Shown one piece after another: positions 1 to 57,287 of a stretch of DNA of 64,000 nucleotides. The first letter of the stretch is position 1, and each line of letters opens with the position of its first letter. The stretch lies in assembly GCA_002722135.1 (NCBI GenBank), contig PBKJ01000011.1, forward strand, positions 37,309 through 101,308, read 5' to 3'. Under the pieces are notes generated by a model that worked only from the letters and a program-made list of their open reading frames with translations, ran no database searches and had not been told where the DNA came from. The DNA is from Methanobacteriota archaeon (GTDB lineage: Archaea > Thermoplasmatota > Poseidoniia > Poseidoniales > Poseidoniaceae). The translations under genes were made by a program, and so were the position numbers.

Positions 1-3000
1 TGGTTTGGTGTGACCTTCTTCATCGGACTCGCCATCTATTCCATCTCCACGAACAAGTCGTGGGGCGGGTGGAGCAACCGCTCTGATGACGCGCCGAGTG
101 GCGCTCGAACCTTCTGGTCAGCCCACTGGTCGCAGGTCATGATCGCCGCGGCCTTCATCATGGCCTTCGCGGTCCGCACCCAGTGGTACGTCATCCCCGC
201 CATGAACGGCTACGGGACCGGCGATTGGGACCTCACCGGCGGTTCTGACCCGTGGTACATGAAGCGCGTCGTCGACTACATCATGATGCAGAACGCGCAC
301 CTCGTCTTTGACGCGGACCGCTTCTATCCGTTGGGCGGCATCAACCCACGTCCGCCCTTGTTCGTGTGGTCCATCGCCCTGCTCGCCATGGTGCTGGAGC
401 CCTTCCTCGCCACCCCCGAGGACGCCGTCTGGTGGGCGATGGTCTCCATCCCCGCCATCTTTGGCGCGCTGACGGTCTTCCCTGTCGCGGCCATTGCACG
501 CGATCACGTCAGCAAGCCTGCTGCGGTCATCGCTGCATGGCTCATCGCCATGATGCCCGGTCACATTTCCCGTTCGACCTGGGCCAACGCGGACCACGAC
601 GCCTTCGTGATGTTCTTCATGGCGCTCGGCTTCATGTGGTTCCTTCGAGCCATGGCCGCGGGCGGTGACGAACGCCTCACGCGGACCACCGACGCCCGCC
701 CGTCCACCGTGCTCCGAGCCTTCGGAGACGTGGCCACTCACCGCCGCTTCGCCGTGGTCAACGCGGCCTTGGCCGGTGTCGCCTTCGGCGTGGTCGCCCT
801 CGGTTGGAAGGGTTTCGTGGTCGCGCCTTCGATCCTCTTCGTGGGCTACGTCTACATCGTCGCGACCAACATGTTCCGCAACAAGGACAGCACCACGCTC
901 AACATGCTGATGCTGACCATGCTGGGCACGACGCTGCTCCTGGCCATGCCGTTCTATGCCTACCCGGGCATGGACTTGGTCTTCAGCGGCACGGGCCTGC
1001 AGCCCCTGCTGTTCGTGCTCGGCTTTACCATGGCCATCGCCTATGTGACGACCGGATTCCGTGACAAGCCGTGGCTGCTCGTTCTGGGTTCCCTCACCGG
1101 CGCTGCCGTGGCCTTTGTGGCCATCATTTGGCTGCTCCAATTCTTTGAGCAATCCAACGCGTTCAACGTCTTGTTCACCGGTGCAGGCTACTTCACCAAG
1201 ACCAAGATTTTCGGCACGGTTGCAGAAGCCAACGCGCCTGACCGTGGGATGCTCTTCGCTTCCTTCGGCCCGATCGTGTTCATCCTCGCGCTCAGCATGG
1301 GCATCATCGCCCTCTGGCGAGGCACCCGGCAACGCCGCCACGAGCACGTCTTCATGGCCACGTGGATCCTTTTGGCCATCTTCATGTCGTGGACCGCTGC
1401 GCGTTTCATCTTCAACGCCACACCGGCCATGGCCGTGCTCGGCGCTTGGGGTGCGGTGGGTCTGTGGAGCTGGTCCGGCACCAAGGAAATGACGCGCAAA
1501 ATGCGTCGCATGGGCGTCCGAACACCGGCCGATCGTATTGCCTCGGCGCGCAAGGCCGTGTGGCGCACGCCACAATTCAGCGCGATCATGCTCGTCATGA
1601 TCATGCTCGGCGGCCAGCACATGACCTACGGACTTGACGCCGGTATTCCCGGTACCTCGCCCGCTGAGGACGACATCGACGAGACGCTCTACAACGTCGT
1701 CCCCGACGTGCTCCGTTGGGACGTGGCTGGATTCTCCTTCCTGAACCCCACCGCGTACGCCGACGGCGGCATGCGGTACCTCGGTGCCTTTGGCAGCAGT
1801 TTCAACCAGCAAGGATGGAACGATGCATACGCCTGGCTTGCGGCTCAGGACGCCGACGAACCCTACTCTGAGAAGCCAGCGTTCGTCTCGTGGTGGGACT
1901 ACGGTTTCCAGGCCCTGACGTCGGGCGATCACCCCTCCGTCTCGGACAACTTCCAGTCGGGCATCCCGGCCACTGGGAACATGCTGCTGGCCCGCGGCGA
2001 AGCCGATTTGGCCGCCATGTGGTTCTGGCAGCTTGCTGAAGGTGACCGAACCTACGCGGCTGAGCACGGCTACGACTCAAAATTCACCCCGCCATTTGAT
2101 GCGGTCCTGCAGGACCACCTCAGCGACGCACAATACGCCGCACTGCTTGACATCAACGACGGCACGGAATTCCGTGACGAGACCCGGGTCATCGACGGTC
2201 AAGAGCGAGAGGTGAGCCTCCCCATTGAGGTCTTGGACGCCGCGTTCCGCGTGACGCAAACCAACCGGGACACCATCATGACCGAAGGTCACAAGCTCAA
2301 CGACGACGGCACCACCAGCGACGACGTGCGATGGCGCCTCTGGAAGGACGGCGAGATCCTCGCCTGTGCCGAGAGCCTCGCCAGTTCGTGTGACGGTGCG
2401 GACTTCCTGTCGCAGGAAGACGCCAACCGTACGTTCAACAACAACGTTCGATTGACCTCGGACACCACCTTCGAAGTGACCCACTACGTGTTTGGCGACT
2501 ACTGGTACACTGCCGACCTTGCCGAGGAGTTCAACTCGGTCTCGACGCACATTCACCGTTCCAACGCCCGTCTGGCCATGACCGTCCAACTCTTGGTCAA
2601 CGGACTGACAGAAGCACAGGTCATGGACCTCTACACCGACATCATCGGTTTGGAGGGCGCCTATTCGGTGCAGGACTACCACGGTGCTCCTGGGGAAACG
2701 GTTGAGCGTGACCACGAGATCCGCTACTTCGCGGTCGACAACCGCCTCTACCCACGCGCTGGCCGTTACACGGCCGACGCCCAATACAACGCGGGGCAAC
2801 CCATGGGCATCTTCGCCGCTCCAACCATCCTGTCCGGTCAGGACCCGACCACCTTCATGACGGAGGTGTACGAGACTCAGCGCGGTGCCTTCACCGACGA
2901 AATGACGCGTGAAGAGGTCGACGAAGCCATCCGGCAAGACGTGCTCAATCAGCAGGCCGGTGCGGAAATTGACCCTGTGCAGATCATCGACGTTCGGGCC

Positions 3001-6000
3001 GACCACACGGCTCAATTCTTTGACACCATGGTGGCCCGAACCTACGTCGGCTACGGTGCATCCACGCTTGGCGTGGACAGCGACGGCTCCAACCCGCAGC
3101 CTGCGCAGCACTTTGGCCAGAGCGGCTCGCCTGGCACCTTCATGGCCCAAGCTCTGCCGCTTCCTGGCGCGATGATGAACCACTTCGTCCTCGCGAACTA
3201 CAACGATGACGACAACGCGGAGAACGGCTACGGACAAGCCAACTCCATGGTCAAGATCCTGAAGTTCTACCCCGGCGCTGAAATGACCGGCCAGGTGACC
3301 TTTGCCGACGACGGACAGCCCCTCGAGAACGTGCGGCTCCTCGTCGAGCGCGACGCTTTCTCTGGCGAATCCGGCGAAGACCTCGACGCAGACACCTATT
3401 GGATCCCCATCGGCTTCGTGGACACCGACGAAGAAGGACGCTATTCCTTCCTTGCTCCAGCAGGCCACATTCGCGTGAGCGCCTTCATCGGCGAGTACGA
3501 CCCCTCTTCGGCCCGCAATGCGATTCAGGACGGCTCCTTCACCGAGAACCTCGGTGACGTCCTGACCGAATACAACGAGGACCGCACCGTCAACGAGATC
3601 ACCGCCGTCCTCGGCGAGGTCGCCAACATGACCTGGGTGGGTGAAACTCACCTCAACGTCAGCGCTGACGAAGCCAACCGTGTGAAGGCGCTCGACCGCA
3701 CGGCGGACCTTGCCGTGGCCTCGAGCGGTGTGAGCGGTATCGTGACGTGGACCGGCGACGAATCCTTCGCCGGCGAGCCGCTTGTTGATACGACCTTCAT
3801 CCTGCGCGACATTTGGTCCTACACCGACAACCACACCGTGGTGACCAACAACGGTTCCTTCACCACCGAAGAAACCCGCATCCTTCAGGGAACGGGTGAG
3901 GTGACCTTCACCGAGGACGGGACCTTCGAGTCTGACGGCGTCGCGGTGGCGCGCGAGTTCACGGGCACCTACACCCGTCAGCTGAACGGCGACCGCATCC
4001 ACACCGCCAACGGCACGTGGACCGGCCGAGGCATCATCGAGGGCTGGGTCAGCGAAGACGACCTCGCCAACGTCTCCGACTGTCTTGACAACAACGCCAT
4101 GACGCCGGAGAACACATCGGTGTGCACCATGACCGGTGCCGAAAACGCGAGCAAGTACCTGTTTGAGGGAACCGTGACGGCCAGCGGCCGTGTGGAGACC
4201 CTCTCGCCGACCGTCGTCGTTCGAGACGTGCAAGGTCAGACCTTCGAGGGCGCTGGCGTCTTCGAGGGCGTTGGGACCCTCAACGGAACGGGCCTCTTCG
4301 CCGGTCAAGGCGACTTCTCCGGACCGATGGTTCAGCCAGGTTCCTTCTACAAGACTGGCCTCCTGCCCGGTGTCTACAACATGTTTGCCGTGCTCCCGAA
4401 CGGCCGCCAGGTCCTCTTGCCGGACCCCGTGACGGTCGGTGTCGAAGCCTCGTATGATGTTGAGATGACCATGCCTGGAGCCGTGTTTGCCGATGTTCTG
4501 GAGGACATGGAAGGCAACGTTCTGCCTGACACGATCATCGAGTTGGTGGACACCGTCCTTGGACTGGACGAAGCCGTGACCATCGTCACCGACGAAAACG
4601 GCAGCTTCAGCCAAGGTCCGATTCCATCTGGTGAGTACTACTACCGTGTGGACATCGACCATGACGGCTGGTACGAAATCAACGCGACGTTCAGCGTTCA
4701 GGACGAGCCTGAGAACATCACGTTGGCTTACCCTGTGCCGCCGATGACCGACGTCACGATTCAGCTCGAGGCGCCCTTTGGCAGCGACGGCCAGCCCACG
4801 GTTGACGTCGCCGACCGCACGGTGACGCTGACCAACAACATGCCCGATTCCGGCCTCGAACCGTACGTGGCCGTGAGCGACGAGAACGGCGTCCTGTACG
4901 CCGAAGTCCCCATGGGCAGCTACACCATCTCAGACGACGCTGACGAGGAGCACCTGCTCCTTGCCCTGCTCGACGTCGAGGAAGACGACATCACGACGAC
5001 CCTGACGTACGCGGCTTCGACCTGGCTGAACGGCTCGGTGGACGCGCCGTTCGGCGCCGACAACGGGTACGATGCTTGGCTCGAGACCGAGGAGCGACCG
5101 ACCGAGGCCGCCACCCAAGTCGACGTGGTCGCAAGGGGCGCGGGTGACCTGACCTTCACCGCGAACACCGGCGACGACGGCCTGTTCTCGATGCGTGTTC
5201 CGGTCGACGAGAGTTACTCGCTGACGATGACCAAGACCACCGTCAACTACGGGTACGGGACGGTCGTGACCGTCACCGAGGGCATGGATGACCTGAGCAT
5301 CGTGCTCGAGCCGATCGAGTTCATCTCTGGCGCACTCTACCACATCGACAACAGCACCTTCTGGAACGACGCCATCCCCGGATGGATGCCCGTTGAGATG
5401 ACGGCCACCAGCACCGACGGTGTCGTGTGGGAATCCGTCTCGAACACGGACGGCGGCTTTGTCTTCAACCTCCCCGCTGGAACCTACGACATCAGCGTCG
5501 TGGAGGACGTCCTGTACAACGCGACGTCCGACGAGGACGTGGTGGTCGTTCGCAACCCAGAGTTTGTGCTGGAACCCGCAAGCCTCTACCTCAACCCCGG
5601 CGGTCACGCCATGACCTTCCATGTCTTCCAAGACGCGGCCGGGGACGGCAACGCCTCCAACGGCAGCACGGTCACCCCAGCGTTCTCCCTCGTTCCAAGC
5701 ACGGAACACGGTGCATTGCTCAACGTGACCGCAGACATGTACGCTGCAAACGGCACGCTGACGCTGGACATGCCCATCGGCACTTACACCATCGAGTTTG
5801 CCGAGCAGGATGCGGCCTCTGAGAACGCGAGTGAGTACGCCTTGGTGCCCGCCTCCCCGCTCTCTGCCATTGTGATTGGCATCCCTGAACCGATCGAGAC
5901 CATCGACGTCGGATTGGTGGACGAGTGGCGCATGAACGGCACGGTCTCCGATGCAAACGGTTCCGCCCTCCGCCCACAAGGCGACAGCGTGTTGCTCGTG

Positions 6001-8634
6001 TCCACGGACGGCGAGGATTACCGCAACGTTGCTGTGGATGAGAACGGTACCTTCGCGGACTACGTGCCAAGCGGCGATTGGATCGCCGTGATTGGCGCGT
6101 TCGAAGGTGAGGACGCCACGGAAATCCTCCGGCAGGCCCTGACCGTGAGCGAGAACAGTGCACGCACCGACGTGTCCTTGGCCACCGTTGAAGCGGCCGA
6201 TGTGAGCCTTCACCTCCGTGAAGCGCTCAGTGAGAACAACTTGTCCGGCTTCCGCATGACCTTGGTGTCCGCGGACGGTCTCGGCAACGTGTCCTTGGAC
6301 CTGACCGATGAAGACGGCCAGGTTGCTGAACCAATGATGCCCGGCACGTGGTCGGTGCATATGGAGCGAGAGGACGTTCAGGACCGTTGGACCCTCGACA
6401 CCAGCGCGACGCCGTTTACCCTTGCAGCAGGTGAGGAAGTGAACATCACGGACCTTTACGCCGACCACGACGTCGAAATCGGTGGTCGCCTCTACTGGGA
6501 CCTTGACAACGACGACACCCCCGATGCCAACGAAGGCGTCGAGGGCGTGCTCATGAACGTCACGAGCCTCGACGGGACGACGTTCATCTCGAACGTGACC
6601 TCCGATGAGAACGGTGTCTGGCAACTCTTCGTGCCCGTCCGCACGTCCTACGTGGTGGAAGGCAGCAAGCTGGGCTTTGCCGATGTCGCTTACGATCTCG
6701 ACGGCAACGGTCTGTACGTGGTGAACGACAGCGCGATGTCCGAGGACCTCGAAGTGTCCGTGGGCCTTGTTGACGTCAGCGGAGCCATCACGGACGCCGT
6801 GGATGCGACCCGCCTTGACGGCGCATCGGTCGTGCTCCAGCCCGCTTCAGGCCTGGCACGCGATGCGGTAACGGTGGACAGCACCTCCTTTGACGGCACC
6901 ACCCTGACGTGGGACGCTCAGGTTGAGCCCGGTGCATGGGTCGTCATCGTTCGAGAAGCCAACCCCGGTGAGAACAACGGCGCCGTCGCCATCGGTCTGC
7001 TTGACGCCAGCGTCGGCTCCGGCGGTCACTTGGACCAGACCATGGTGCTTGGTGGCTACGTCGACCTGCAAACCTCGTGGACGGCCATCGACTTGATCCA
7101 GCACCACCTTGGCAGCGCCTCGGCCGGTGCCTCGATGATCAGCGAAGGACCGACCGTGACCGTGGAACTTGACGACGACGTGTCATGGGACATCACGGTG
7201 AACGACGACGGTGCGCTGAGCATGTTGGTGCCCTCGGGTCGTGTCTCCTTCTCTGCAGACATGGTCACCGTGCAGCACGAACTCGAACTCAACATGAGCT
7301 ACGAAGGCAGCAACTTCACCACCGTATCAGCCGACCGGCAGCAGATGTTCCTCATCCTCGACCGTCGTGCTGACCGCGACCTCGTGGTCGAAGTGGGCAC
7401 CGTCGACGCCGATACCGTCGAGTCCTACACGGACGATGCGGGCGGTGTGGACATCCAGGCCAAGCAAGACGGTGACTACGAGCACACCGCCGTTGAGCTC
7501 ACGGTTGACGTGACCTACGACGGTACGGAGTACGAGGACGTCTACACCGCAAGCGGCAACGCGGGCAACGCTCCCGATGCTTCCGATTGGAGCGTCGAGT
7601 TCTGGAACGACACTGAAGAAGCGTGGCAATCCACGCTTGAGGTCCGTCTTGGCATCGGTGAAGACGCGTCCACGGACGACGTGCCCATGTCGGCCACGCT
7701 GAAGGTGCGCATCACGCTCCCTGACCAGAACACCTCCCTGTCGCTGCAGAACGGCCACAGCGTGAACGTCATGCTGACGGCAGAGACCGGTGAATTCACC
7801 GAGCGTTCGATGACCGTTCGCGTGCCGGTCATCCGCGGCTTCGACGTCGAAGCCGTCGACGAACGTGTGGGCATTGGCAGCGATGACGTGCAAACCCTGA
7901 CGACGACATTGACCAACAACGGAAACGGTGACGCGACGTTCACCTTCGAAGTCGTTGAGAACTACGACGCGACCCTGTGGGAGATCACGCCAGCCTCCAG
8001 CACCATCACCGTGGCGGCCGGAGACACGCGTACCCAAGCCTTCAACGTCCGCTCCGACGCGAGCTTCACCACCGGTGAACTGGAAGTGACCATCGGGGTC
8101 ACAGAAGTCGGCGGAAGCAGCACCAGCCTGCAGATGACCGTGGTCAACGCGGCCATCGTCCTCAGCGTCGACCAGGACCTGGCGGTGCAAGAATCGGACA
8201 ACACCGCTGAGCAAGAATCGACGATTGTGGTCATCCCCGTCACCAACAGCGGTGAGCGCGATGCGGAGAATTCCGTCATCGTCTACGCTCGTCAGCAAGG
8301 TGAGGGCCTTGACTACCAGCAGGTGACGTTGTCCGTGCCCGGCGGTGAAACCGTCAACGCGGAGTTCGATGTTGGGTCCATGACCAACGGCAACAAGCGG
8401 TTTGAGTTCTACCTCGAAGTGACGGGCGATGATGCTGAGTTTGCCACCATCGAGGCCGATTCCGACGGAACAGGAGACGATCCAATCGACTTCCAAATCC
8501 GTTTCAACATCGAAACCAACACGGACAACACCGGGGTGGGACAGACCGTCCTTGCGCTGATTGTGATTGCGTTCGTCGGTCTCGTCGTGTGGGGCGGTCT
8601 CAGCCTCTCTCGCTCTGGAAGCCGTCGGTTCTGA
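1..8634 (+). CDS. aglB: AglB/STT3 oligosaccharyltransferase with giant extracellular C-terminal extension (5' partial)
   Basis: Catalytic subunit of archaeal N-glycosylation: it moves a lipid-linked oligosaccharide onto Asn in N-X-S/T sequons outside the membrane. The frame is open to base 1, so the N-terminus is cut. Counting from the GTG at base 10, the first acidic motif GGSDPWY lies near residue 78, an ADHDA motif near 194, then multiple membrane segments to about 560, and the hallmark WWDYG near 628. The family normally ends around 800-1000 residues; this protein runs to at least 2874. The extra part is a string of beta-sandwich modules resembling carboxypeptidase-regulatory/Ig-like repeats (recurring 'DENGxF...VPxGxY' pattern), rich in N-X-S/T sequons, closed by a C-terminal membrane helix (VLALIVIAFVGLVVW) and a short basic tail. 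The STT3 assignment is secure; the tail function is unknown, perhaps surface display or substrate presentation. Confidence 0.93.
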   Translation, partial: WFGVTFFIGLAIYSISTNKSWGGWSNRSDDAPSGARTFWSAHWSQVMIAAAFIMAFAVRTQWYVIPAMNGYGTGDWDLTGGSDPWYMKRVVDYIMMQNAHLVFDADRFYPLGGINPRPPLFVWSIALLAMVLEPFLATPEDAVWWAMVSIPAIFGALTVFPVAAIARDHVSKPAAVIAAWLIAMMPGHISRSTWANADHDAFVMFFMALGFMWFLRAMAAGGDERLTRTTDARPSTVLRAFGDVATHRRFAVVNAALAGVAFGVVALGWKGFVVAPSILFVGYVYIVATNMFRNKDSTTLNMLMLTMLGTTLLLAMPFYAYPGMDLVFSGTGLQPLLFVLGFTMAIAYVTTGFRDKPWLLVLGSLTGAAVAFVAIIWLLQFFEQSNAFNVLFTGAGYFTKTKIFGTVAEANAPDRGMLFASFGPIVFILALSMGIIALWRGTRQRRHEHVFMATWILLAIFMSWTAARFIFNATPAMAVLGAWGAVGLWSWSGTKEMTRKMRRMGVRTPADRIASARKAVWRTPQFSAIMLVMIMLGGQHMTYGLDAGIPGTSPAEDDIDETLYNVVPDVLRWDVAGFSFLNPTAYADGGMRYLGAFGSSFNQQGWNDAYAWLAAQDADEPYSEKPAFVSWWDYGFQALTSGDHPSVSDNFQSGIPATGNMLLARGEADLAAMWFWQLAEGDRTYAAEHGYDSKFTPPFDAVLQDHLSDAQYAALLDINDGTEFRDETRVIDGQEREVSLPIEVLDAAFRVTQTNRDTIMTEGHKLNDDGTTSDDVRWRLWKDGEILACAESLASSCDGADFLSQEDANRTFNNNVRLTSDTTFEVTHYVFGDYWYTADLAEEFNSVSTHIHRSNARLAMTVQLLVNGLTEAQVMDLYTDIIGLEGAYSVQDYHGAPGETVERDHEIRYFAVDNRLYPRAGRYTADAQYNAGQPMGIFAAPTILSGQDPTTFMTEVYETQRGAFTDEMTREEVDEAIRQDVLNQQAGAEIDPVQIIDVRADHTAQFFDTMVARTYVGYGASTLGVDSDGSNPQPAQHFGQSGSPGTFMAQALPLPGAMMNHFVLANYNDDDNAENGYGQANSMVKILKFYPGAEMTGQVTFADDGQPLENVRLLVERDAFSGESGEDLDADTYWIPIGFVDTDEEGRYSFLAPAGHIRVSAFIGEYDPSSARNAIQDGSFTENLGDVLTEYNEDRTVNEITAVLGEVANMTWVGETHLNVSADEANRVKALDRTADLAVASSGVSGIVTWTGDESFAGEPLVDTTFILRDIWSYTDNHTVVTNNGSFTTEETRILQGTGEVTFTEDGTFESDGVAVAREFTGTYTRQLNGDRIHTANGTWTGRGIIEGWVSEDDLANVSDCLDNNAMTPENTSVCTMTGAENASKYLFEGTVTASGRVETLSPTVVVRDVQGQTFEGAGVFEGVGTLNGTGLFAGQGDFSGPMVQPGSFYKTGLLPGVYNMFAVLPNGRQVLLPDPVTVGVEASYDVEMTMPGAVFADVLEDMEGNVLPDTIIELVDTVLGLDEAVTIVTDENGSFSQGPIPSGEYYYRVDIDHDGWYEINATFSVQDEPENITLAYPVPPMTDVTIQLEAPFGSDGQPTVDVADRTVTLTNNMPDSGLEPYVAVSDENGVLYAEVPMGSYTISDDADEEHLLLALLDVEEDDITTTLTYAASTWLNGSVDAPFGADNGYDAWLETEERPTEAATQVDVVARGAGDLTFTANTGDDGLFSMRVPVDESYSLTMTKTTVNYGYGTVVTVTEGMDDLSIVLEPIEFISGALYHIDNSTFWNDAIPGWMPVEMTATSTDGVVWESVSNTDGGFVFNLPAGTYDISVVEDVLYNATSDEDVVVVRNPEFVLEPASLYLNPGGHAMTFHVFQDAAGDGNASNGSTVTPAFSLVPSTEHGALLNVTADMYAANGTLTLDMPIGTYTIEFAEQDAASENASEYALVPASPLSAIVIGIPEPIETIDVGLVDEWRMNGTVSDANGSALRPQGDSVLLVSTDGEDYRNVAVDENGTFADYVPSGDWIAVIGAFEGEDATEILRQALTVSENSARTDVSLATVEAADVSLHLREALSENNLSGFRMTLVSADGLGNVSLDLTDEDGQVAEPMMPGTWSVHMEREDVQDRWTLDTSATPFTLAAGEEVNITDLYADHDVEIGGRLYWDLDNDDTPDANEGVEGVLMNVTSLDGTTFISNVTSDENGVWQLFVPVRTSYVVEGSKLGFADVAYDLDGNGLYVVNDSAMSEDLEVSVGLVDVSGAITDAVDATRLDGASVVLQPASGLARDAVTVDSTSFDGTTLTWDAQVEPGAWVVIVREANPGENNGAVAIGLLDASVGSGGHLDQTMVLGGYVDLQTSWTAIDLIQHHLGSASAGASMISEGPTVTVELDDDVSWDITVNDDGALSMLVPSGRVSFSADMVTVQHELELNMSYEGSNFTTVSADRQQMFLILDRRADRDLVVEVGTVDADTVESYTDDAGGVDIQAKQDGDYEHTAVELTVDVTYDGTEYEDVYTASGNAGNAPDASDWSVEFWNDTEEAWQSTLEVRLGIGEDASTDDVPMSATLKVRITLPDQNTSLSLQNGHSVNVMLTAETGEFTERSMTVRVPVIRGFDVEAVDERVGIGSDDVQTLTTTLTNNGNGDATFTFEVVENYDATLWEITPASSTITVAAGDTRTQAFNVRSDASFTTGELEVTIGVTEVGGSSTSLQMTVVNAAIVLSVDQDLAVQESDNTAEQESTIVVIPVTNSGERDAENSVIVYARQQGEGLDYQQVTLSVPGGETVNAEFDVGSMTNGNKRFEFYLEVTGDDAEFATIEADSDGTGDDPIDFQIRFNIETNTDNTGVGQTVLALIVIAFVGLVVWGGLSLSRSGSRRF

Positions 8635-21456: not shown

Positions 21457-21493
21457 GTCGCAGAGGGCAAAGAACACGCCGAGGGTGCTCGAC

Positions 21494-21501
21494 GGAGGGT
21501 G
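21494..21501 (+). promoter_or_regulatory. Shine-Dalgarno site fixing the start at 21506
   Basis: GGAGGGTG ends just before ATG 21506 (7 nt from the GGAGG core). It supports ATG 21506, directly before the signal peptide, rather than the ORF-track start at 21485. Confidence 0.6.
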
Positions 21502-21505
21502 TTTC

Positions 21506-24500
21506 ATGCGTCGAAGTCAGAGCACCCTCCTCATCACGCTGGCCGTGGTGGCTGGCCTGCTCTTCATGTCGCAGTTCCCGGCCTTGTCGCCGGTGGCGTC
21601 AAACAACCCAAATGAGGCGACCGGTGAAGCGCCTCCCGTCACCGACAGCGACGGCGATTTGATTCCTGACGTGCATGAGAACCTGTTCGAAGATTGGGTG
21701 AACCGGAGCACGGCGGACGGCCGGATGATCGTCATACCAGGCCTTGACCGTGACGACGCCCGTGACGCCAAATACGATCTTGACCGGGACGGCCTTAACG
21801 CCACGGAAGAGTACTGCTGGCCGTATCCTGCGAACTGCACGGATCCTGGCTTCCCTCGTGGATTGACGGGGTTGCTCGATGAAAACGGGGAACGGAGTTA
21901 CCTCGACCCCCGCGTGTCCGACACGGACGGCGATGGGTTGCCCGACGGTTTTGAGGCATGGATGTGCCTGCAGACCGGCGGTTACAACGCGGTGGACATG
22001 GTCTTCCGGTGCCCACGCTTTGATCCGCTGAACGCCAGCGAGGGTGCCGAGGACCCCGATGAGGACGGGTTCGACGTGGATCGAAATGGCATCATCGACG
22101 ACAACGAGATGTACACGTCGGCCGAGGAATACAGGCACGGTATGCCTCCCTTCCATGTGGATGAACTCGACGGTTTGTGGTGCTCAGCGAGCCTTCCAGA
22201 TGGCGGTCCGTTCGACGATTGGCCGTACATTTCAACGGCCGCGAACATGACCTTCGCCAACCTCCTTGCCGCGTGCACCACAAACAGCACTTCGGTGTTC
22301 GACGAGGACATCTGGTTGGGCACCAATCCGTTGAACGCGGACAGCGACCACAGGTCGTGGAACGGCGTGAGCCTCGGCCGCACCTTCCCTTCCTTTGGCG
22401 ATGGACTGCCAGACGGGTGGGAAGTTCACTTTGGCCTTGACCCGCTGAACAGGTCCAACGCGCTCATCGACGTTGACAAGGACGGCTGGGACGAGGACAG
22501 GGACGGTTTCGTGACCGGGGATCCTGTGACCACCCAAACCGGAGTCTCCCTCGGCGAGGCGCTCTCCTCCTACGAGGAATACCTCGTGCACGACGACCAA
22601 GGCAACGTGGTCCGATCCGGCCTCAAGCACGTCGCCTTTGGTGCCAACGACACGTGGGTCGAGGTTCCGGTCAGGCTTGCCTCACCAACAGCGAGTGTCG
22701 CTACCCTGCACCACGACGTGCGTGATCTCCACGTCAACGATCAGGACGTCTACGTCATGACGCGTCACGGCATCACCCATTGGGCGGTGGACGACGGCAC
22801 GAGCACCGACGTGTGGTGGCCTCACGCCATCCGCTTGACGGATCTTGTGCCACTGGACGTCAACGGGGCGCTTGCCGGCTTTGCCGTGACGTCAAGCGCG
22901 GGATTGCAGATCATTCCCTTGCTGGACGACGGTGCCTTGGCACCGATGGAAACGTGGAGCCACATGGACGCGCCAGCACTCGAACGGGCCGTGGTCCTCG
23001 ATCTGGATGGAGCCAGCATGCACGTCTTGGCCCTCGGCGCCAACGGTGACGGTGGCGTGTGGACCATCGGCAGTGATTTGCAGCCAAACGGGGACGTGAT
23101 GGGCGCGTTGAGCGCTGGTGTGCGTTCCGCACTCTCGTCGACGAACGCGACCGTGACTGCCCTCGCCCACGCGCCAGGTGTTGACGGCGTCCCCACCCTT
23201 TTCGTCGGAACGGATCGCGGCCTTCTGGTCTTCGAAACCGCTTCCGCACGCGACGCGAACCTCAACGGCACATGGTTGTTCCACTTCGCCTTCGAACCCA
23301 CGGTGGTGGACCGGGACCTCGACGCGTTGCGGCCCATCGGTGCCAACGTCGGTGAAGCCCCCGCCGAAGTCCGAGACTTGGTCTTGGATGGCGCGGGTCC
23401 TGACCAGCTCGACACCCTTTGGATGGCGATGCCCTCTGGCATCCACCGTCTTGACCTCCGGACCCTGGCCATTTCTTTCGGAGGGGACCTGGTCCACCCG
23501 GGTCAAGACGGACGGTCCATCACTGGTGCCGACGACGTGCACAGCCTCCTCGTCTTGGACGACGCCTTGCTTGTGGGCAGTGCATGGGGCCTTTGGGTGG
23601 TTGACGGCGGACGTGAAGCCACCTATGGCGCGCGGGAGCAAGCCCTCCTTCCCGGAGAGTTGGCGGCCTTGGCCACCGTCGAAGTTGACGGCGTGTTGCG
23701 CATCCTTGGTGGTGCTGCTCCAGGCCGATTCGCGAACCAAGCCCTGATGTCTCCGGTCAGCAACGACTCTGACTTCGACGGCATGACCGACGGCTGGGAA
23801 CTCATCCATGGCCTCGACCCCACCGATCCTTGGGACGCAGTATTGGATCCTGACGGCGACGGTCTTGACAAGGACCTCGACGGCTTTGCTGATGACCGAT
23901 TGTGGACCAACCTTGACGAATACCGTTACATCGCCATCACGGACGACGGGTACGACAGCACCGATCCGTCCAACCCGGACACCGACATGGACGGAGCACC
24001 GGACGGTGCAGAAGTGCATGCTTTCCATCTGTCCACCACCACCTTGTGGTGCTACTACGATTTCCAGATGACCTACCGCTGCGACAGCACCGTGGGTGCG
24101 GCGGCCAACCAGACCTACGTCGACAACGCACCGACCGACGCGGCCACGGACCCCACCAATCCAGATTCCGACGGCGACGGGATGCCTGACGGTTGGGAAA
24201 TCGAGCACAGGCGCTGGGTGGGCACGGCCTTTGACGGCGGCAACAATTGGACCCTTGACCCGATGCGTGCGGACGATGCGCTGTGGGATGCAGACCGCGA
24301 TGGTCTGGCCAACATTTGCGAGTACCAATGGAGCGTCATGCGCGACTTGGCGCTACGGGGCGACATGGTGGACACCCACGGTGAATCGCCTGATGCGGCA
24401 GAGGCATGGTTCGAAACCGATCCAAACAATCCAGACTCCGATGGCGACACCATGACCGACGGCTGGGAAGCAGGCGGCCTCTGCGCCTACGATGCGGGGC

Positions 24501-27259
24501 GTGTGGGGGTGAACCCGCTCAACGGCAGCGACGGTCTCGAAAATCCGGACGGTGACGGTTTCGACGTGAACCTTGACGGCGTGCTCGAACCAGGGGAGGC
24601 CTACGTGAATTGGCTCGAGTTCCACATCAAAGACCTCGACGTCGTTGACGGGGCCATTACCTTCGGAGCCTTCACCGCCCCGGAGGGCTTGGATATGTCC
24701 CTCTTCGAAGGCATGCTGCTGGGCGACGAGCCCGCTCACGGTTTCATTGACGATGCCGATTTGGCCACCTTGGCCACCGCGGTGCCCGCTGCGATTGGAT
24801 CGACGGATCCCTTGGACACCGACAGCGACGGAGACGGCATGCCGGACGGTTGGGAAATTCACTTCGCTCGTTGGGCGGTTCTCGAGGACCGCTGGACCCT
24901 CAACCCAATCGATCGAACCGATCGCTTCCTTGACGCCGACGACGACGGCATGACCAATTGGGAGGAGTACAACGCCATCGACCCGGCCTTGAACCAACTC
25001 GAATCCATTCAGTCAAGCCCACAATTCTACGTGACCACCATCGGCACGGCGCCCGCCCTGCAGCAGTGGGCCAGCATTTCAGTTGACGCCTCCTTCGGCT
25101 CCTTTGCCTCCGCTGCGGTGCTGAACGCCAGTGGACCAACCGCTGACCCGAACAACCCAGACACGGACGGCGACGGCATCATCGACGGCATGGAAGTCTT
25201 GTTCACGGCGTGGAACGATTCGGCGCAAACGTGGACCCTCAATCCGATGGTTCCTGATGACGGGGATTTCGACGCAGACGGTGACGGTTTGTTGGATCGG
25301 CAAGAACTGGCTTTGGCCTTTGAACAGCCCGACAACGGTGAGGTTCATCCTGCCGACGCCCCCTTGTTCCACATCGACGGAGACAACCAGCAACCGACCG
25401 AGAAATCGCAGCGCATCTTCCGCATCCTCATCGACAAAGACACCCGCGGAAAGCGATACCTGGCCGATTTCAACAGTTGGCAGCAGGGTGAGGTTCCCTC
25501 GGAGTTCATCTCCTTCTTGATGGGCCTGAGCGACCCGACCAACAGCGACACCGACGACGACGGGATGCACGACGGCTTCGAGTACTGGTTCACGTCGTGG
25601 AACCTTGAGGAAAACCGATGGGGCATGAACCCGCTCATCGATTCGGACGTCAACCTCGATTCAGACGGCGACAGTTGGGACTGCAACGGTGACGGGAACA
25701 TCGACCTCAACGAGACCTTCAGCAATTTGCGGGAGTGGGAGTCCAGCACCTGGGGCAAATACCTCGCCAGATTCACGGTGCCGACCGAGGTTGGTGTGGT
25801 GTCCTTCGGCGATGACGCCATGAGCGCGTACATGAGCGAAGCAGGGTTGTCAGCCTTCTTCGCACGTGCTGCGTTGTACGATGATTTCATCGCAAAGGGC
25901 CCTGAGAGCGCGAACCGGATGACCGCCATCAACGGCCTTGATCCGAACAATTTCAACCGAACCTTGCTCGGCGTCGCCGACCCGACGCACCCCGACTCGG
26001 ACAGCGATGGACTGCCGGACGGCTGGGAATACTGCTACGCACGCTACGACATGCCCGACCCCTCGACCGCGCTTCGTTGGGCGGCTAATCCGCTCAATCC
26101 ATTCGACGTCGACCACGACGGTGACAGCGACGGTTGGTATGATCGCACGTCCTTCGACACCCCAGCGCCCCTCGGTGCGTGGAATGCTCGGAGTTTCAGC
26201 GCCTCGGGTGAGCTCATCCAGCAGGGTGTCGGTGACCTTCCGTTCACCAACTGGATGGAGTACGAAAACGGGACCCGTCCTGACTTGAACGACAGCGATG
26301 GTGACAGCGTGGCGTACCTGACCACCGTCGAAAACGGTGCCGTCGTCGCGCACGAGCGCGACTACAACCTCTCCGATGGCCGTGAAGTGTTCAAGTACGG
26401 CACCAATCCGATGGACAACGACACCGACGGCGACATGATTCCAGATTGGTACGAGCACGCCAAGGGTTGGAACGAGACCAACGACAACTACTCCTCATGG
26501 CTTCAGATCCGTGTGCAGTGGATCGACACGACCACCGGTGGTGCGTGCAACACCGATACCACCTCGTGCCGTCCATTGTCCATCGACACGGGCTCCCTCG
26601 CGCGCCCCAACCTTGCGTTCACCTGGTTTTCGATGGACCCACGCGATGCCACGGACGCCAATGAGGACCACGATCAGGACGGAAACTGGGATTGTTCGGG
26701 AGCAGGGTGTGTGTACACACCCTACACCGCGTTCCAAGAATTCTATGCCATCACCGACCCTGTGCTTTCCTCCCCGAACGCTGTGCGCCTGGCAGGATTG
26801 GTCCATGACGGCGAGGGCATCAGCGAAGGCTGGCAGCTCCGTGCTCACCTCCTGGGCCTCGGCTCGTGGGACGAAAACGTGCGCAATTACCTGAAGATGG
26901 ACCAGCTCGGCAACTCAGATCAGCGCTTTGTGTGGATCCTCGACGACAACGACCAGGACTTCCTGATCATCGATGAGTCTGATGACGAGGTCTTGGCTGC
27001 TGGTAACCGCACCGATCCGTGGGACATTTTCTACACCGGGTCTCCACAGACGAGCCCCGTTCGAAGCGTGGGTGAACACGAGCTCGGGTGGTACATGGTC
27101 GACCTCGACGACGATCACGTCGCCGAAGGAACGGACCCAATGAACTGGGACACGGACGGGGACTGGGTGGTCGATTGGTTCGAGGTCAACGACGATGAGC
27201 GTGACGGCACAAGGGGCGATTCGTCACCGTTGCGTTACGATTCGCGTTTGGTCTCGTAA
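21506..27259 (+). CDS. Giant secreted protein with thrombospondin type 3-like calcium repeats
   Basis: A 1917-aa exported protein with signal peptide MRRSQSTLLITLAVVAGLLFMSQFPA. About fourteen Asp-rich repeats of the DxDxDGxxDGWE type (for example DSDGDGMPDGWE, DTDGDGIIDGME) are spread along it and should bind calcium as thrombospondin type 3/EF-hand-like loops. Many are followed by a second conserved block ending in 'WTLNPM', giving a longer composite repeat. Residues about 370-750 lack the Asp loops and contain 'GDGGVWTIG' and 'LFVGTDRGLLVF' units suggestive of a beta-propeller. No C-terminal membrane helix is seen, so it is released or held by partners. Calcium-dependent adhesion is an inference. 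Confidence 0.82.
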   Translation: MRRSQSTLLITLAVVAGLLFMSQFPALSPVASNNPNEATGEAPPVTDSDGDLIPDVHENLFEDWVNRSTADGRMIVIPGLDRDDARDAKYDLDRDGLNATEEYCWPYPANCTDPGFPRGLTGLLDENGERSYLDPRVSDTDGDGLPDGFEAWMCLQTGGYNAVDMVFRCPRFDPLNASEGAEDPDEDGFDVDRNGIIDDNEMYTSAEEYRHGMPPFHVDELDGLWCSASLPDGGPFDDWPYISTAANMTFANLLAACTTNSTSVFDEDIWLGTNPLNADSDHRSWNGVSLGRTFPSFGDGLPDGWEVHFGLDPLNRSNALIDVDKDGWDEDRDGFVTGDPVTTQTGVSLGEALSSYEEYLVHDDQGNVVRSGLKHVAFGANDTWVEVPVRLASPTASVATLHHDVRDLHVNDQDVYVMTRHGITHWAVDDGTSTDVWWPHAIRLTDLVPLDVNGALAGFAVTSSAGLQIIPLLDDGALAPMETWSHMDAPALERAVVLDLDGASMHVLALGANGDGGVWTIGSDLQPNGDVMGALSAGVRSALSSTNATVTALAHAPGVDGVPTLFVGTDRGLLVFETASARDANLNGTWLFHFAFEPTVVDRDLDALRPIGANVGEAPAEVRDLVLDGAGPDQLDTLWMAMPSGIHRLDLRTLAISFGGDLVHPGQDGRSITGADDVHSLLVLDDALLVGSAWGLWVVDGGREATYGAREQALLPGELAALATVEVDGVLRILGGAAPGRFANQALMSPVSNDSDFDGMTDGWELIHGLDPTDPWDAVLDPDGDGLDKDLDGFADDRLWTNLDEYRYIAITDDGYDSTDPSNPDTDMDGAPDGAEVHAFHLSTTTLWCYYDFQMTYRCDSTVGAAANQTYVDNAPTDAATDPTNPDSDGDGMPDGWEIEHRRWVGTAFDGGNNWTLDPMRADDALWDADRDGLANICEYQWSVMRDLALRGDMVDTHGESPDAAEAWFETDPNNPDSDGDTMTDGWEAGGLCAYDAGRVGVNPLNGSDGLENPDGDGFDVNLDGVLEPGEAYVNWLEFHIKDLDVVDGAITFGAFTAPEGLDMSLFEGMLLGDEPAHGFIDDADLATLATAVPAAIGSTDPLDTDSDGDGMPDGWEIHFARWAVLEDRWTLNPIDRTDRFLDADDDGMTNWEEYNAIDPALNQLESIQSSPQFYVTTIGTAPALQQWASISVDASFGSFASAAVLNASGPTADPNNPDTDGDGIIDGMEVLFTAWNDSAQTWTLNPMVPDDGDFDADGDGLLDRQELALAFEQPDNGEVHPADAPLFHIDGDNQQPTEKSQRIFRILIDKDTRGKRYLADFNSWQQGEVPSEFISFLMGLSDPTNSDTDDDGMHDGFEYWFTSWNLEENRWGMNPLIDSDVNLDSDGDSWDCNGDGNIDLNETFSNLREWESSTWGKYLARFTVPTEVGVVSFGDDAMSAYMSEAGLSAFFARAALYDDFIAKGPESANRMTAINGLDPNNFNRTLLGVADPTHPDSDSDGLPDGWEYCYARYDMPDPSTALRWAANPLNPFDVDHDGDSDGWYDRTSFDTPAPLGAWNARSFSASGELIQQGVGDLPFTNWMEYENGTRPDLNDSDGDSVAYLTTVENGAVVAHERDYNLSDGREVFKYGTNPMDNDTDGDMIPDWYEHAKGWNETNDNYSSWLQIRVQWIDTTTGGACNTDTTSCRPLSIDTGSLARPNLAFTWFSMDPRDATDANEDHDQDGNWDCSGAGCVYTPYTAFQEFYAITDPVLSSPNAVRLAGLVHDGEGISEGWQLRAHLLGLGSWDENVRNYLKMDQLGNSDQRFVWILDDNDQDFLIIDESDDEVLAAGNRTDPWDIFYTGSPQTSPVRSVGEHELGWYMVDLDDDHVAEGTDPMNWDTDGDWVVDWFEVNDDERDGTRGDSSPLRYDSRLVS

Positions 27260-27278
27260 TGCACCGTTCAGGGCATCA

Positions 27279-27284
27279 TTCAAA
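27279..27284 (+). promoter_or_regulatory. TATA-like box TTCAAA before 1811-aa surface protein
   Basis: TTCAAA centred 27.5 nt before ATG 27309, in the 49-bp gap after the calcium-repeat gene. The spacing fits leaderless transcription. Confidence 0.45.
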
Positions 27285-27308
27285 TGCTCAGCCAATGGTC
27301 TTTCGAAC

Positions 27309-30300
27309 ATGGTGGACGCCCGCTTGCCGTCACGCAAATCCATCGCGCCCGCCGTGATGTTGACCTTGCTGATGATGCTGATGTCTGCCTCGCCGCTGCT
27401 GACGGCACTTGCGCCGAACGCAGAAGCCTCTGGCGTGGCGCGCCACGCCTACGGGTTCAGCGACGGCTCCACCGAATACGTCGCGTTGTACCAAGGCGCA
27501 AGTCCAGACACGGGTGCGAAGGTGCAGATTCCAGTGGGTGCCGAGGTCGTGGACGTCAGCATGACCCTGTCTGGTGCAAGCTCCACCGGCTGGTCGTCCA
27601 CCTCGAGCGCAACGACCGAGGATTGGCAAGCGGGTGAGGGTTCGGGCGTCGACGCGCGATCGCCCGTGCTGACCTTGCAGCAAGCCACCCCGACCACGGA
27701 ATTCTTCCCGCACGGGTTGGACACGGTCATCGACCCTTCATCCACGGCTTGGCACGACAACGGCTCCTACGCAGTCCGCCAACCCCACACCTCCAACTCA
27801 ACGGAAACGCGGTTTTCGCAACAGGTTCAGCGCACGAGCAGCACGCTCACCCCACAGGGCCAGGGCGCCGTCCTCAAGCACCACGACTGGATCTTTGTCT
27901 CCACGTGGAATTCAAACAACCTCAGCAACGTGGTCAAAGCGCACTACCCCAACAACCTCACCCGTGCATGGGGCGTGACCATCGATTCCACGGCGTCTGC
28001 ATGCGTGCTTCCGCAAACGCACAGTTCCACCTATTACGGCCAGTATGGGTTCCGAGATTGGGCCTTGGCCGATGACGAGCGGTTGCTTGCCATTCTCTCC
28101 GGTTACAAGTACTTCTACGGGTCCACCGCACCCACGCAGTACCATCGCGTGCTGGAACTCGACGTGTCCAGCGACGACGAGTGGGTGTGCACCGCCTCCT
28201 ACGACATCTCGCCACAATTTGGTGATTACACGGGCATCGCCTATGACCGTGAAGACGGAACCTTCTGGGTGGCCCACAACAGCCAGCGCCGTTTGGTGGA
28301 ATACAACATGGCGGACGGGACGTGGAGCAGAAACAGCGAGATGTTCTCGTACTCTTCATCGGCTTCCTCAGCGTGGGAATGCGGCACGACGGGTCAGATG
28401 GTTCGCGGGCTCGAGGTCCAAGGCAACACCTTCTACATGCGTTGCCAAAAGGACAGCTACTACAACGACCGTGACACGCTCGAAGCGTGGTCCGTCAGCG
28501 GGGCCTCGACCTCTTTGGTGCCCCAGTCTGGTATCCGAGAGATCTCCAGCCTTGGCTACGGCCTCCAGTGGGACGGAACCCGCTTTGTCACGGTGGACAG
28601 CGGCTATTCGACCTGGAGCGGCAAGACCCTTTACTACCGCGAGTTCGGCACGGGCTGGACCTACGAGACCATCGCTGCACCCGGCACCACGACGTGGTAT
28701 GGCCCCGTGACCACCTCTGCTGAAGACGTGCTCTCGGTCAACACCCGCGTCGGCTGGTCGGCCGCATCCATTGGCGATAGGGTGGACCACTGGGTCTCTG
28801 CCGACAACGGCACCCACTGGTCCTCGGTGACGGCCAACGAAACCATCCACTTCGCGCACCCGGGGAACGAGTTGGTGTGGAAGGCTCAGATGATCGGCTC
28901 TTCGGCCGTGTCTTGGTGGGTTGAACTCGAACACGATACGGAATACACCTCAGTCGGCTCATGGACCTCGCCGTCCATTCCAACCGGGACCAAGGTCGGC
29001 AAGGTCCGGCCCACGTGGGTGGCCGATGAACCGGCAGGGACGTCCATCACCGTGTATGTGTCAAACAACGACGGGACGGACTGGTACGAAGCGACCAACG
29101 GGCAAGAGATTGGCTTCCCGACCGAAGCGGCCGGGTCCGCCCTCCGCTACTCCATCCAGTTGGACACCACCGACGTGACGGTCACGCCCAGCGTGACGTC
29201 CTTCACCCTCGAATACGAGGAAGGATACCCTGACCGCCCACGCATCGACGTCGGAAACGACGGCAGTTACGATTGGGAGTCCCTCCTGTTCCTGAACGAA
29301 TCCTCCGTGGACGCCAGCGACGACAGCATCGTTGACCAAGACGTCAAGGACACGCCCACCCTCGTGTCGGCCTTCAACGACGCGATTCCAGACAACGGTG
29401 ACGGCACCGTCGACATCACGCTGGCGGTCAAGGCGGCTTCACCAGGGCGCATCAAGATCTCGAACCTCGACGTGGCTTACGTGATGCAAACGCGCGCGAT
29501 TGGCGCATCGTTGGAGGGCGGCATGCTGGCCCCAGACGGTGCGCACCGTGACCTCGTCGTCGACGTGGCTCGGGGTGATGACGTGACGCGCGTCAACCGG
29601 GTGGACGTGACCCTGCAGAATTCACATGGCGAGGACCCAACCGTGCAGTGGTCCCGTGGTGACCAGTGCAGCGTCATCAGCGACGGCGGCGGCGTGGTCC
29701 ATTTCGATGCAGGAAACTGCACCTCCACCTCGGTGAGTGACAGCATCACGCGGATTCGGATTCCGACCCTCGTGGATTGGTCATGGAACGACGAAGTTGC
29801 CATGGAAGCGAACATCACCGTGGTCGATCCGATCGGCGAGAAGGTCACCGACTGGACCACCACCGGTCTCGACGTTCGCATCGAGAACGACATTCAGCTC
29901 GACGGCTTGCGCGTCTTTGACGAGACCGGGCGAGAACTGTACCCATTGGATTGGGTTCGAGGCGGGTACAACCTCAGCTTTGCCGGGAAGATTCACTTCG
30001 AGGGCAGTCAACTCAACCCTCTCGGTGGGGAATTCGACCTCCGCGTCCTCGGTCAGAACGTGACCTACGACGGCGACCCAATCGGTGAGCCGGTGGTGCT
30101 GGCCACGACGTCGAACCCGTCGTTTGGTGAGTACAACATCACCTTCCAATCGCCGTTGGAAAGCGCTCCCGGCGGCATGGTCTTCCATGTGGAGGCCGTG
30201 GACATGGTCAACGGCTCTGTGTTCACCAACCCAGGCTACAACACCATCCGCTTGACGCTCGACGGCAACTCTCCTCTGGTGCTTTCCTCCGACCCCATGG

Positions 30301-56194: not shown

Positions 56195-57235
56195 ATGACC
56201 ATCAGGGTGGCCATCAACGGCTACGGCACCATCGGAAAGCGCGTTGCAGACGCGGTCGCAGCCCAAGACGACATGACCGTCATCGGCGTCACGAAAACAC
56301 GTCCTTCGTTTGGCTGTGATTTGGCCGTGCGGAAGGGCTACCCGCTCTTCTGCACCTTCGACGATGAGGACCGCATCCGAGCGTTCGCCGATGCAGGTTA
56401 CGCGTGTGGGGGCGGCATCTCCGACTTGCTCGCACAAACCGACGTCGTCATCGATTGTTCGCCCGGAAAAGCCGGTGCAGCCAACCTTGAGCGGTACAAG
56501 GCCGCAGGCGTGAAGTGGATCTTCCAAGGCGGTGAAAAGCATGCGACGACGGGCATGTCCTACACCTCGTGTGCAAACCATGCCGAGAACCTGAACGTGG
56601 AGGGGACCCGCGTGGTGTCGTGCAACACGACGGGCCTTTCTCGAACCCTTGTGCCCTTGTTGGAAGCCTGTGGCTCCCTCAAAGTTGAATGCACCATGAT
56701 TCGACGTGCGGCTGACCCTGGCGACTCCAAGAAGGGCCCCATCAACGCCATCACTCCTGTGCTCAAGGTGCCCAGCCACCATGGTCCTGACGTCATGACG
56801 GTTCGGCCGGAAATCGACATCACGTCCATGGCCGTCGCGGTTCCCACCACCATCATGCACATGCACGCCATTGTTGCCACCTTGCCGGACGGTCATGGCA
56901 TGACCACGAGCAGCGTGTTGGACCTGTGGAGGTCTCAACCCCGGGTGCTGATCATGAACGGCGGTGAAACAGGCATCACCAGCACCGCAGAGGTCATGGA
57001 GTTCGCACGCGACATTGGACGCACGTGGGGTGATTTGCACGAAATTTTCGTGTGGGAAGACGGGGTGAAACTCGAAGGGAACAACCTGTACTATTTCCAG
57101 GCCATTCACCAAGAATCCGATGTGGTCCCAGAGAACGTCGACGCCGTTCGCGCATTGATGGGTTCCGAAGAGGACTGGCGTGCTTCCGTGGCCAAGACCG
57201 ATGCCGCCATCGCAGCGTTCAACGGACTCGCCTGA
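56195..57235 (+). CDS. gap: Type II glyceraldehyde-3-phosphate dehydrogenase (archaeal)
   Basis: Phosphorylating, NAD(P)-dependent GAPDH of the archaeal type II class, interconverting glyceraldehyde 3-phosphate and 1,3-bisphosphoglycerate in glycolysis/gluconeogenesis. The 346-aa protein has the Rossmann motif VAINGYGTIGKRVADAV at the N-terminus, the catalytic Cys in VVSCNTTGLSR (C143), IRRAADPGDSKKGPINAITPV, and the conserved VPTTIMHMHAI block. Length is normal. It stands alone, divergent from the GXGXG gene and followed after 52 bp by a subtilase with its own promoter box. Confidence 0.97.
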   Translation: MTIRVAINGYGTIGKRVADAVAAQDDMTVIGVTKTRPSFGCDLAVRKGYPLFCTFDDEDRIRAFADAGYACGGGISDLLAQTDVVIDCSPGKAGAANLERYKAAGVKWIFQGGEKHATTGMSYTSCANHAENLNVEGTRVVSCNTTGLSRTLVPLLEACGSLKVECTMIRRAADPGDSKKGPINAITPVLKVPSHHGPDVMTVRPEIDITSMAVAVPTTIMHMHAIVATLPDGHGMTTSSVLDLWRSQPRVLIMNGGETGITSTAEVMEFARDIGRTWGDLHEIFVWEDGVKLEGNNLYYFQAIHQESDVVPENVDAVRALMGSEEDWRASVAKTDAAIAAFNGLA

Positions 57236-57257
57236 GGCCGCCCACCTGTGGGAGGCC

Positions 57258-57263
57258 TTCAAA
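57258..57263 (+). promoter_or_regulatory. TATA-like box TTCAAA for giant subtilase
   Basis: TTCAAA (context GGCCTTCAAA) centred 27.5 nt before ATG 57288. Identical ten bases and identical spacing occur before the other subtilase gene (8678). Confidence 0.48.
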
Positions 57264-57287
57264 AGCCGACCATGGCCCCTAAGGGCC

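Follow-up and report, generated by a model that had tools for sequence, protein, structure and literature searches.

AglB is usually regarded as a compact single-subunit enzyme, and in eukaryotes glycosylation and nascent-chain handling are carried out by separate modules. The eukaryotic STT3 and single-subunit protist oligosaccharyltransferases belong to the same catalytic family as the protein described here and are found among its PDB sequence matches, but their PDB chains comprise only ~700-930 residues and their accessory functions, where present, reside on separate subunits. The archaeal AglB-Long of Archaeoglobus fulgidus (PDB 3waj) likewise shares the STT3 membrane module and the DxD, DHD, TIxE-type and WWDYG motifs, and its soluble C-terminal domain, in which a core is joined by an insertion and a peripheral unit rich in beta structure (PMC3703281), resembles that of the giant AglB. 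The 3waj chain has 875 residues, however, and lacks the long array, the second membrane anchor and the multi-helix N-terminal extension of the protein considered here.

In one Poseidoniales MAG an oligosaccharyltransferase is among the highly transcribed genes, with neither its length nor its architecture given (PMC9723583), and no account of a long-tailed AglB was found in the open-access papers searched. We describe an AglB from a Candidatus Poseidoniales archaeon that is a real and, as far as the papers searched show, undescribed variant of the known enzyme, with a catalytic subunit that is two to three times larger in these abundant marine archaea, and in much of their phylum, and that has a conserved beta-domain architecture.

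Gene structure and catalytic module

The window analysed is a stretch of 64,000 nucleotides whose first 8,634 nucleotides form a single frame on the forward strand, open at the 5′-end. The ATG start codon is found 966 bases ahead of the window's first base in the parent contig, and the full gene encodes 3,199 amino acids, two of them X residues resulting from two ambiguous N bases; residue r starts at window base 3r-968. The initial annotation had recognized one giant frame, as is borne out here, but had given it as window positions 1-8634, whereas the gene start lies outside. The order of domains is a multi-helix extension, the STT3 module, the WWDYG-containing soluble domain, a prealbumin-like domain, a beta-domain array and a membrane helix (Table 1).

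Table 1. Coordinates of the AglB gene, its domains and motifs, and its downstream neighbour, in window positions
Feature	Position	Strand	Basis or remark
AglB-type oligosaccharyltransferase, residues 323-3199 of 3,199	1..8634	+	open frame; full gene L002:9035-18634
Final segment of ~370-residue N-terminal multi-helix extension, residues 323-372; remainder upstream	1..150	+	helices preceding DxD motif
STT3 transmembrane module, residues ~373-870, approximate boundaries	151..1644	+	PF02516 E=3.4e-14; 3waj E=7e-12
First acidic motif, GSDPWY	241..258	+	19/19 relatives
Second acidic motif, ADHD	589..600	+	DHD in 19/19 relatives
T[VI][AG]E motif, SVSE/TIxE position	1216..1227	+	19/19 relatives
Soluble catalytic domain, core and variable insertion, residues ~880-1400	1672..3234	+	3vu0 E=2e-11
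WWDYG motif	1891..1905	+	19/19 relatives
First prealbumin-like domain (K[FY]YxGAxxxGxV...)	3247..3534	+	alignment with relatives
Tail segment outside the best-aligned region common to most other families, residues ~1505-1755	3547..4299	+	
Core beta-domain array common to other families of the phylum, residues ~1760-3169	4312..8541	+	hhalign
C-terminal transmembrane helix, then basic end	8542..8607	+	hydropathy and end sequences across relatives
S8 subtilase, downstream neighbour, inferred start codon	8702..9853	+	PF00082 E=6e-33

The protein is a single-subunit AglB oligosaccharyltransferase with a predicted catalytic module. Its PF02516 match scores 53.6 bits against a curated cut-off of 24.5, and 3waj is the closest solved AglB. 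TIGR04154, the model for archaeosortase-associated STT3, matches with E=6.2e-49, yet its 167 bits fall short of the curated cut-off of 450. The WWDYG, SDP and DHD motifs read in the initial annotation are all present; the four motifs lie at residues 402 (GGSDPWY), 519 (ADHD), 728 (TVAE) and 953 (WWDYG), and all 19 aligned full-length relatives share their core letters. The soluble-domain profile aligns with solved AglB C-terminal domains, WWDYG included, but the alignment to solved AglB runs out after the WWDYG region and the DK/MI motif has no confident position. One PF02516 gene was detected in the host genome, and relatives usually have one each.

A multi-helix N-terminal part had also been noticed from the window, without being divided into the STT3 module and the extension of ~370 residues that precedes STT3 helix 1. 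This extension contains about ten helices (L002:9035-10150) and is conserved in the order. Modelled in a close relative it reached a mean pLDDT of 79; that model gave no PDB fold match at E<=0.001, and the extension has no PDB sequence match. Families 13 and 20 (L100, L101; families as numbered here) have separate N-terminal helix extensions, for which no kinship to that of the Poseidoniales was detected, and ~100 sequons after WWDYG.

Structure and composition of the tail

The beta-domain tail accounts for ~1,770 residues, over half of the protein; the initial annotation was right in seeing a long array, predicted to be extracellular, but put it at about 2000 residues. The domains are of prealbumin/CarboxypepD_reg-like and CARDB-like kinds. 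The first prealbumin-like domain directly abuts the catalytic core and is common to short- and long-tailed relatives. In the AglB protein both CarboxypepD_reg (E=2.5e-12) and PLipase_C_C pass their curated cut-offs, and CarboxypepD_reg is present in all 19 Poseidoniales tails and all ten other-family tails compared. Within its own genome the whole tail profile matches only the AglB gene, other genes matching the CARDB-like end alone.

Two further features reported at the outset, an abundance of sequons and a second, C-terminal anchor, hold up well. N-x-S/T sequons number 33 in the tail, where its composition predicts 14.9 (z=5.4), roughly a twofold excess; for the reversed motif in this region z is 1.5, and the enzyme part, with 6 sequons against 5.7 expected, has no excess. 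At tail positions 1541, 1750, 2209, 2444 and 2858 a sequon is kept in 16-18 of 19 relatives. Enrichment and conservation together favour glycosylation of the tail itself. The chain ends in a hydrophobic, predicted membrane helix near residue 3180, after which it reads LSRSGSRRF, and in most relatives too the last helix is followed by basic residues. The proposal that the enzyme carries its own surface module thus agrees with a tail that is predicted to be extracellular, C-terminally anchored and sequon-rich; the presentation of substrates, a link to an S-layer and glycosylation of the tail, suggested at the same time, are putative.

Judged from alignments of 19 relatives, the tail sequence changes faster than the enzyme part: mean identity per 100-residue block is mostly 0.19-0.44 in the tail and 0.44-0.62 in the enzyme. 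The segment at ~1505-1755 has an invariant pair, Cys1683 and Cys1697, as well as a Gly-rich strand region. A PDB search with the single tail sequence gave no match. Structure prediction, suggested earlier as a check, was done for residues 1440-2630 and yielded a model that is nearly all beta (mean pLDDT 80), in which the arrangement of domains is unreliable, as the pTM is 0.44. The best fold matches are Gram-positive adhesin and pilin arrays of the CnaB/SdrD type (E to 5.5e-11), which consist of tandem beta-sandwich domains but are wall-anchored and have no fused glycosyltransferase; alpha2-macroglobulin-type domains and S-layer proteins are matched too. A free S-layer or adhesin protein, or a lattice former, is rejected as an identity for the tail, which every intact frame joins to a catalytic membrane enzyme.

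Recurrence of the joined frame in the Poseidoniales

The host genome is a draft of 27 contigs with a few ambiguous bases, and an assembly artefact fusing two genes might be suspected; split genes in related genomes had been named beforehand as the sign of such an error. A scan of named genomes with the post-WWDYG region as query gave 80 loci, labelled in their titles Ca. Poseidoniales, Poseidoniaceae, Poseidonia, or as unresolved bins of Euryarchaeota or Thermoplasmatota. The names of order and phylum used here follow genome record titles and kinship labels. The comparison of AglB length and domain order proposed at the start turned out as expected of a genuine gene: 45 of 49 complete frames from named genomes span 3,143-3,225 amino acids (mean 3,189, SD 15), and untruncated frames in the order's two families mostly have ~3,100-3,330 residues. 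The four frames of odd length are explained by in-frame stops (two), a frameshift (one) and a 302-base N gap (one). A short frame in a one-contig genome (G018) is interrupted by a 15-N gap, another (G050) is broken by the contig end, and in isolate AG-333-I22 (L145), by its name probably a single-cell genome, the frame is joined up to the end of the contig.

No genuinely split aglB was found among the Poseidoniales frames checked. Tail-only genes were sought with the tail profile in genomes without a PF02516 match, and both cases examined had the tail and WWDYG in one frame, which in one of them was cut by the contig end. The same frame occurs in two families and in independent assemblies, each exception checked is accounted for by one of the interruptions given above, and no true split gene was seen; assembly error is accordingly rejected, and an artefactual fusion is hardly conceivable.

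Distribution and age of the tail in the phylum

Long frames are not confined to the order. Across the phylum aglB frames of 2,000-2,750 residues are common, and those of the sister family of the class have ~2,340-2,375. Families 5 and 16 have frames of only ~1,170-1,430 residues, and some second copies have ~930. Five genomes (G259, G267, G275, G285, G288) have two STT3 matches each, at least one of them in a frame of ~900-1,000 residues, which suggests a compact STT3 paralogue beside the other forms.

The colinear tails of other families are about 1,250-1,500 residues long. For families 3, 7, 8, 11, 13/20, 18, 25 and 26 the alignment to the tail of the Poseidoniales covers most of their length, mostly up to and including the C-terminal helix, at hhalign E values of 5e-27 to 4e-36; for families 30, 37 and 38 the values are 1e-12 to 3e-16. 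As controls, 17 surface arrays that are unrelated but abound in the same Pfam domain gave E values of 4e-6 to 0.1; reversed or shuffled tails and the other giant surface proteins of the window gave E >0.01. The tail of family 24, at only 8e-7, is on a par with the best of the unrelated arrays, and the alignments of families 5 and 27 were not significant. The presence of colinear homologous tails in other families implies that the tail is old within the phylum. What had been taken for an exceptional fusion is instead the form that AglB has in this lineage. Homologous tails occur in much of the phylum, and the tail may therefore be testable in a cultured relative.

In a tree of the membrane module, midpoint-rooted and sparsely sampled, the order forms one clade and the short-tailed families 5 and 16 group with the long-tailed families 13 and 20. 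This grouping favours shortening of the tail in families 5 and 16. As these two families are without most of the tail, it is not required throughout the phylum.

Comparison with NOMO

NOMO, which complexes with Nicalin and TMEM147 at the translocon, is a component of the BOS complex of the multipass translocon. Like the AglB tail, it is a long chain of prealbumin/transthyretin-like domains that ends in one membrane helix, but it is a separate, non-catalytic protein. NOMO2 is the top PDB match of a tail profile made from ten other families (2.4e-33, far above the next protein). A control profile made from the 17 unrelated same-domain arrays also has NOMO2 in first place, at 1e-29, and the match is therefore no sign of special kinship; its first rank probably reflects that no other such array among the matches is as long. 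NOMO is also absent from the 50 best fold matches of the tail model. The identification of the tail as NOMO was accordingly dropped.

The NOMO_5th domain is enriched in the tails of other families and remains a weak lead toward NOMO: it was matched by nine of ten of these tails but by at most two of the 17 unrelated arrays. Among the Poseidoniales it was matched by one tail of 19, and the window protein has a weak NOMO1-like_9th match below the cut-off. A search of 236 genomes with NOMO_5th returned 7 weak matches, none above the cut-off, of which five were placed in the AglB frame and a sixth in an AglB-sized frame. That the enzyme might be a covalent union of an oligosaccharyltransferase and a NOMO-like translocon column, combining glycosylation and nascent-chain handling on one polypeptide, is very improbable.

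Possible roles of the tail

Our leading, though tentative, reading is that the tail serves as a built-in exoplasmic scaffold of long-tailed AglB that is old within the phylum. The array would lie outside the cell, tied to the membrane at both ends, and may stand next to the active site as an arch or column. Itself glycosylated, the scaffold would most likely hold the enzyme under or within the glycoprotein coat and keep emerging exported chains near the active site, and might take over tasks that eukaryotes assign to separate non-catalytic subunits. Consistent with a scaffold, the tails are colinear in distant families, clearly above unrelated same-domain arrays, and the length and domain order of AglB are closely held across relatives; the narrow spread of frame lengths is what one would expect of a part of a machine, not of an array whose repeat number changes freely.

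It is also possible, and nearly as likely as a scaffold that handles substrates, that the role of the tail is purely structural, as a spacer or glycan shield of the envelope that anchors or protects the enzyme. The fold matches to pilin and adhesin arrays, alpha2-macroglobulin-type domains and S-layer proteins are in keeping with such a role, as are the sequon enrichment and the CARDB-like end domains, which also occur in other surface proteins encoded by this genome. In family 25 (L114) the tail terminates in a PGF-CTERM-like signal that scores 24.1 bits and narrowly misses the cut-off of 24.5; this fits a surface protein and might mean that the tail of this family is processed by an archaeosortase. 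Surface arrays often vary in repeat number, however, while the AglB tail keeps its length and order, and a passive shield needs no fusion to the enzyme in every genome.

The two roles differ in what they would mean for the enzyme. Substrate handling by the tail would show how accessory functions can be acquired by an enzyme that stays single-subunit, and a tail belonging to the coat would make the enzyme a component of the very envelope it decorates. Either role predicts large, glycosylated peptides in marine metaproteomes.

Gene neighbourhood

An S8 subtilase homologue adjoins aglB in 18 Poseidoniales loci of both families, including the present one, where the D, H and S motifs of the protease are readable in the sequence. 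This arrangement raises the question of whether the protein is a precursor from which the neighbouring subtilase cleaves off the tail, so that one gene would yield two products. No homologue of the subtilase was detected next to long-tailed aglB in other families, however, and no cleavage site is known; such processing is unlikely.

The gene order purD, giant aglB, S8 subtilase and giant beta-helix surface protein is conserved in both families (L002:7567-19692; L077-L095). Elsewhere in the window, a protein of 1,659 residues (57180-62159) combines an S8 subtilase with a CARDB domain. Two adjacent genes (21485-27259 and 27195-32744) encode giant proteins of 1,924 and 1,849 residues that are almost without Pfam matches, and the first of these is enriched in sequons (z=4.4).
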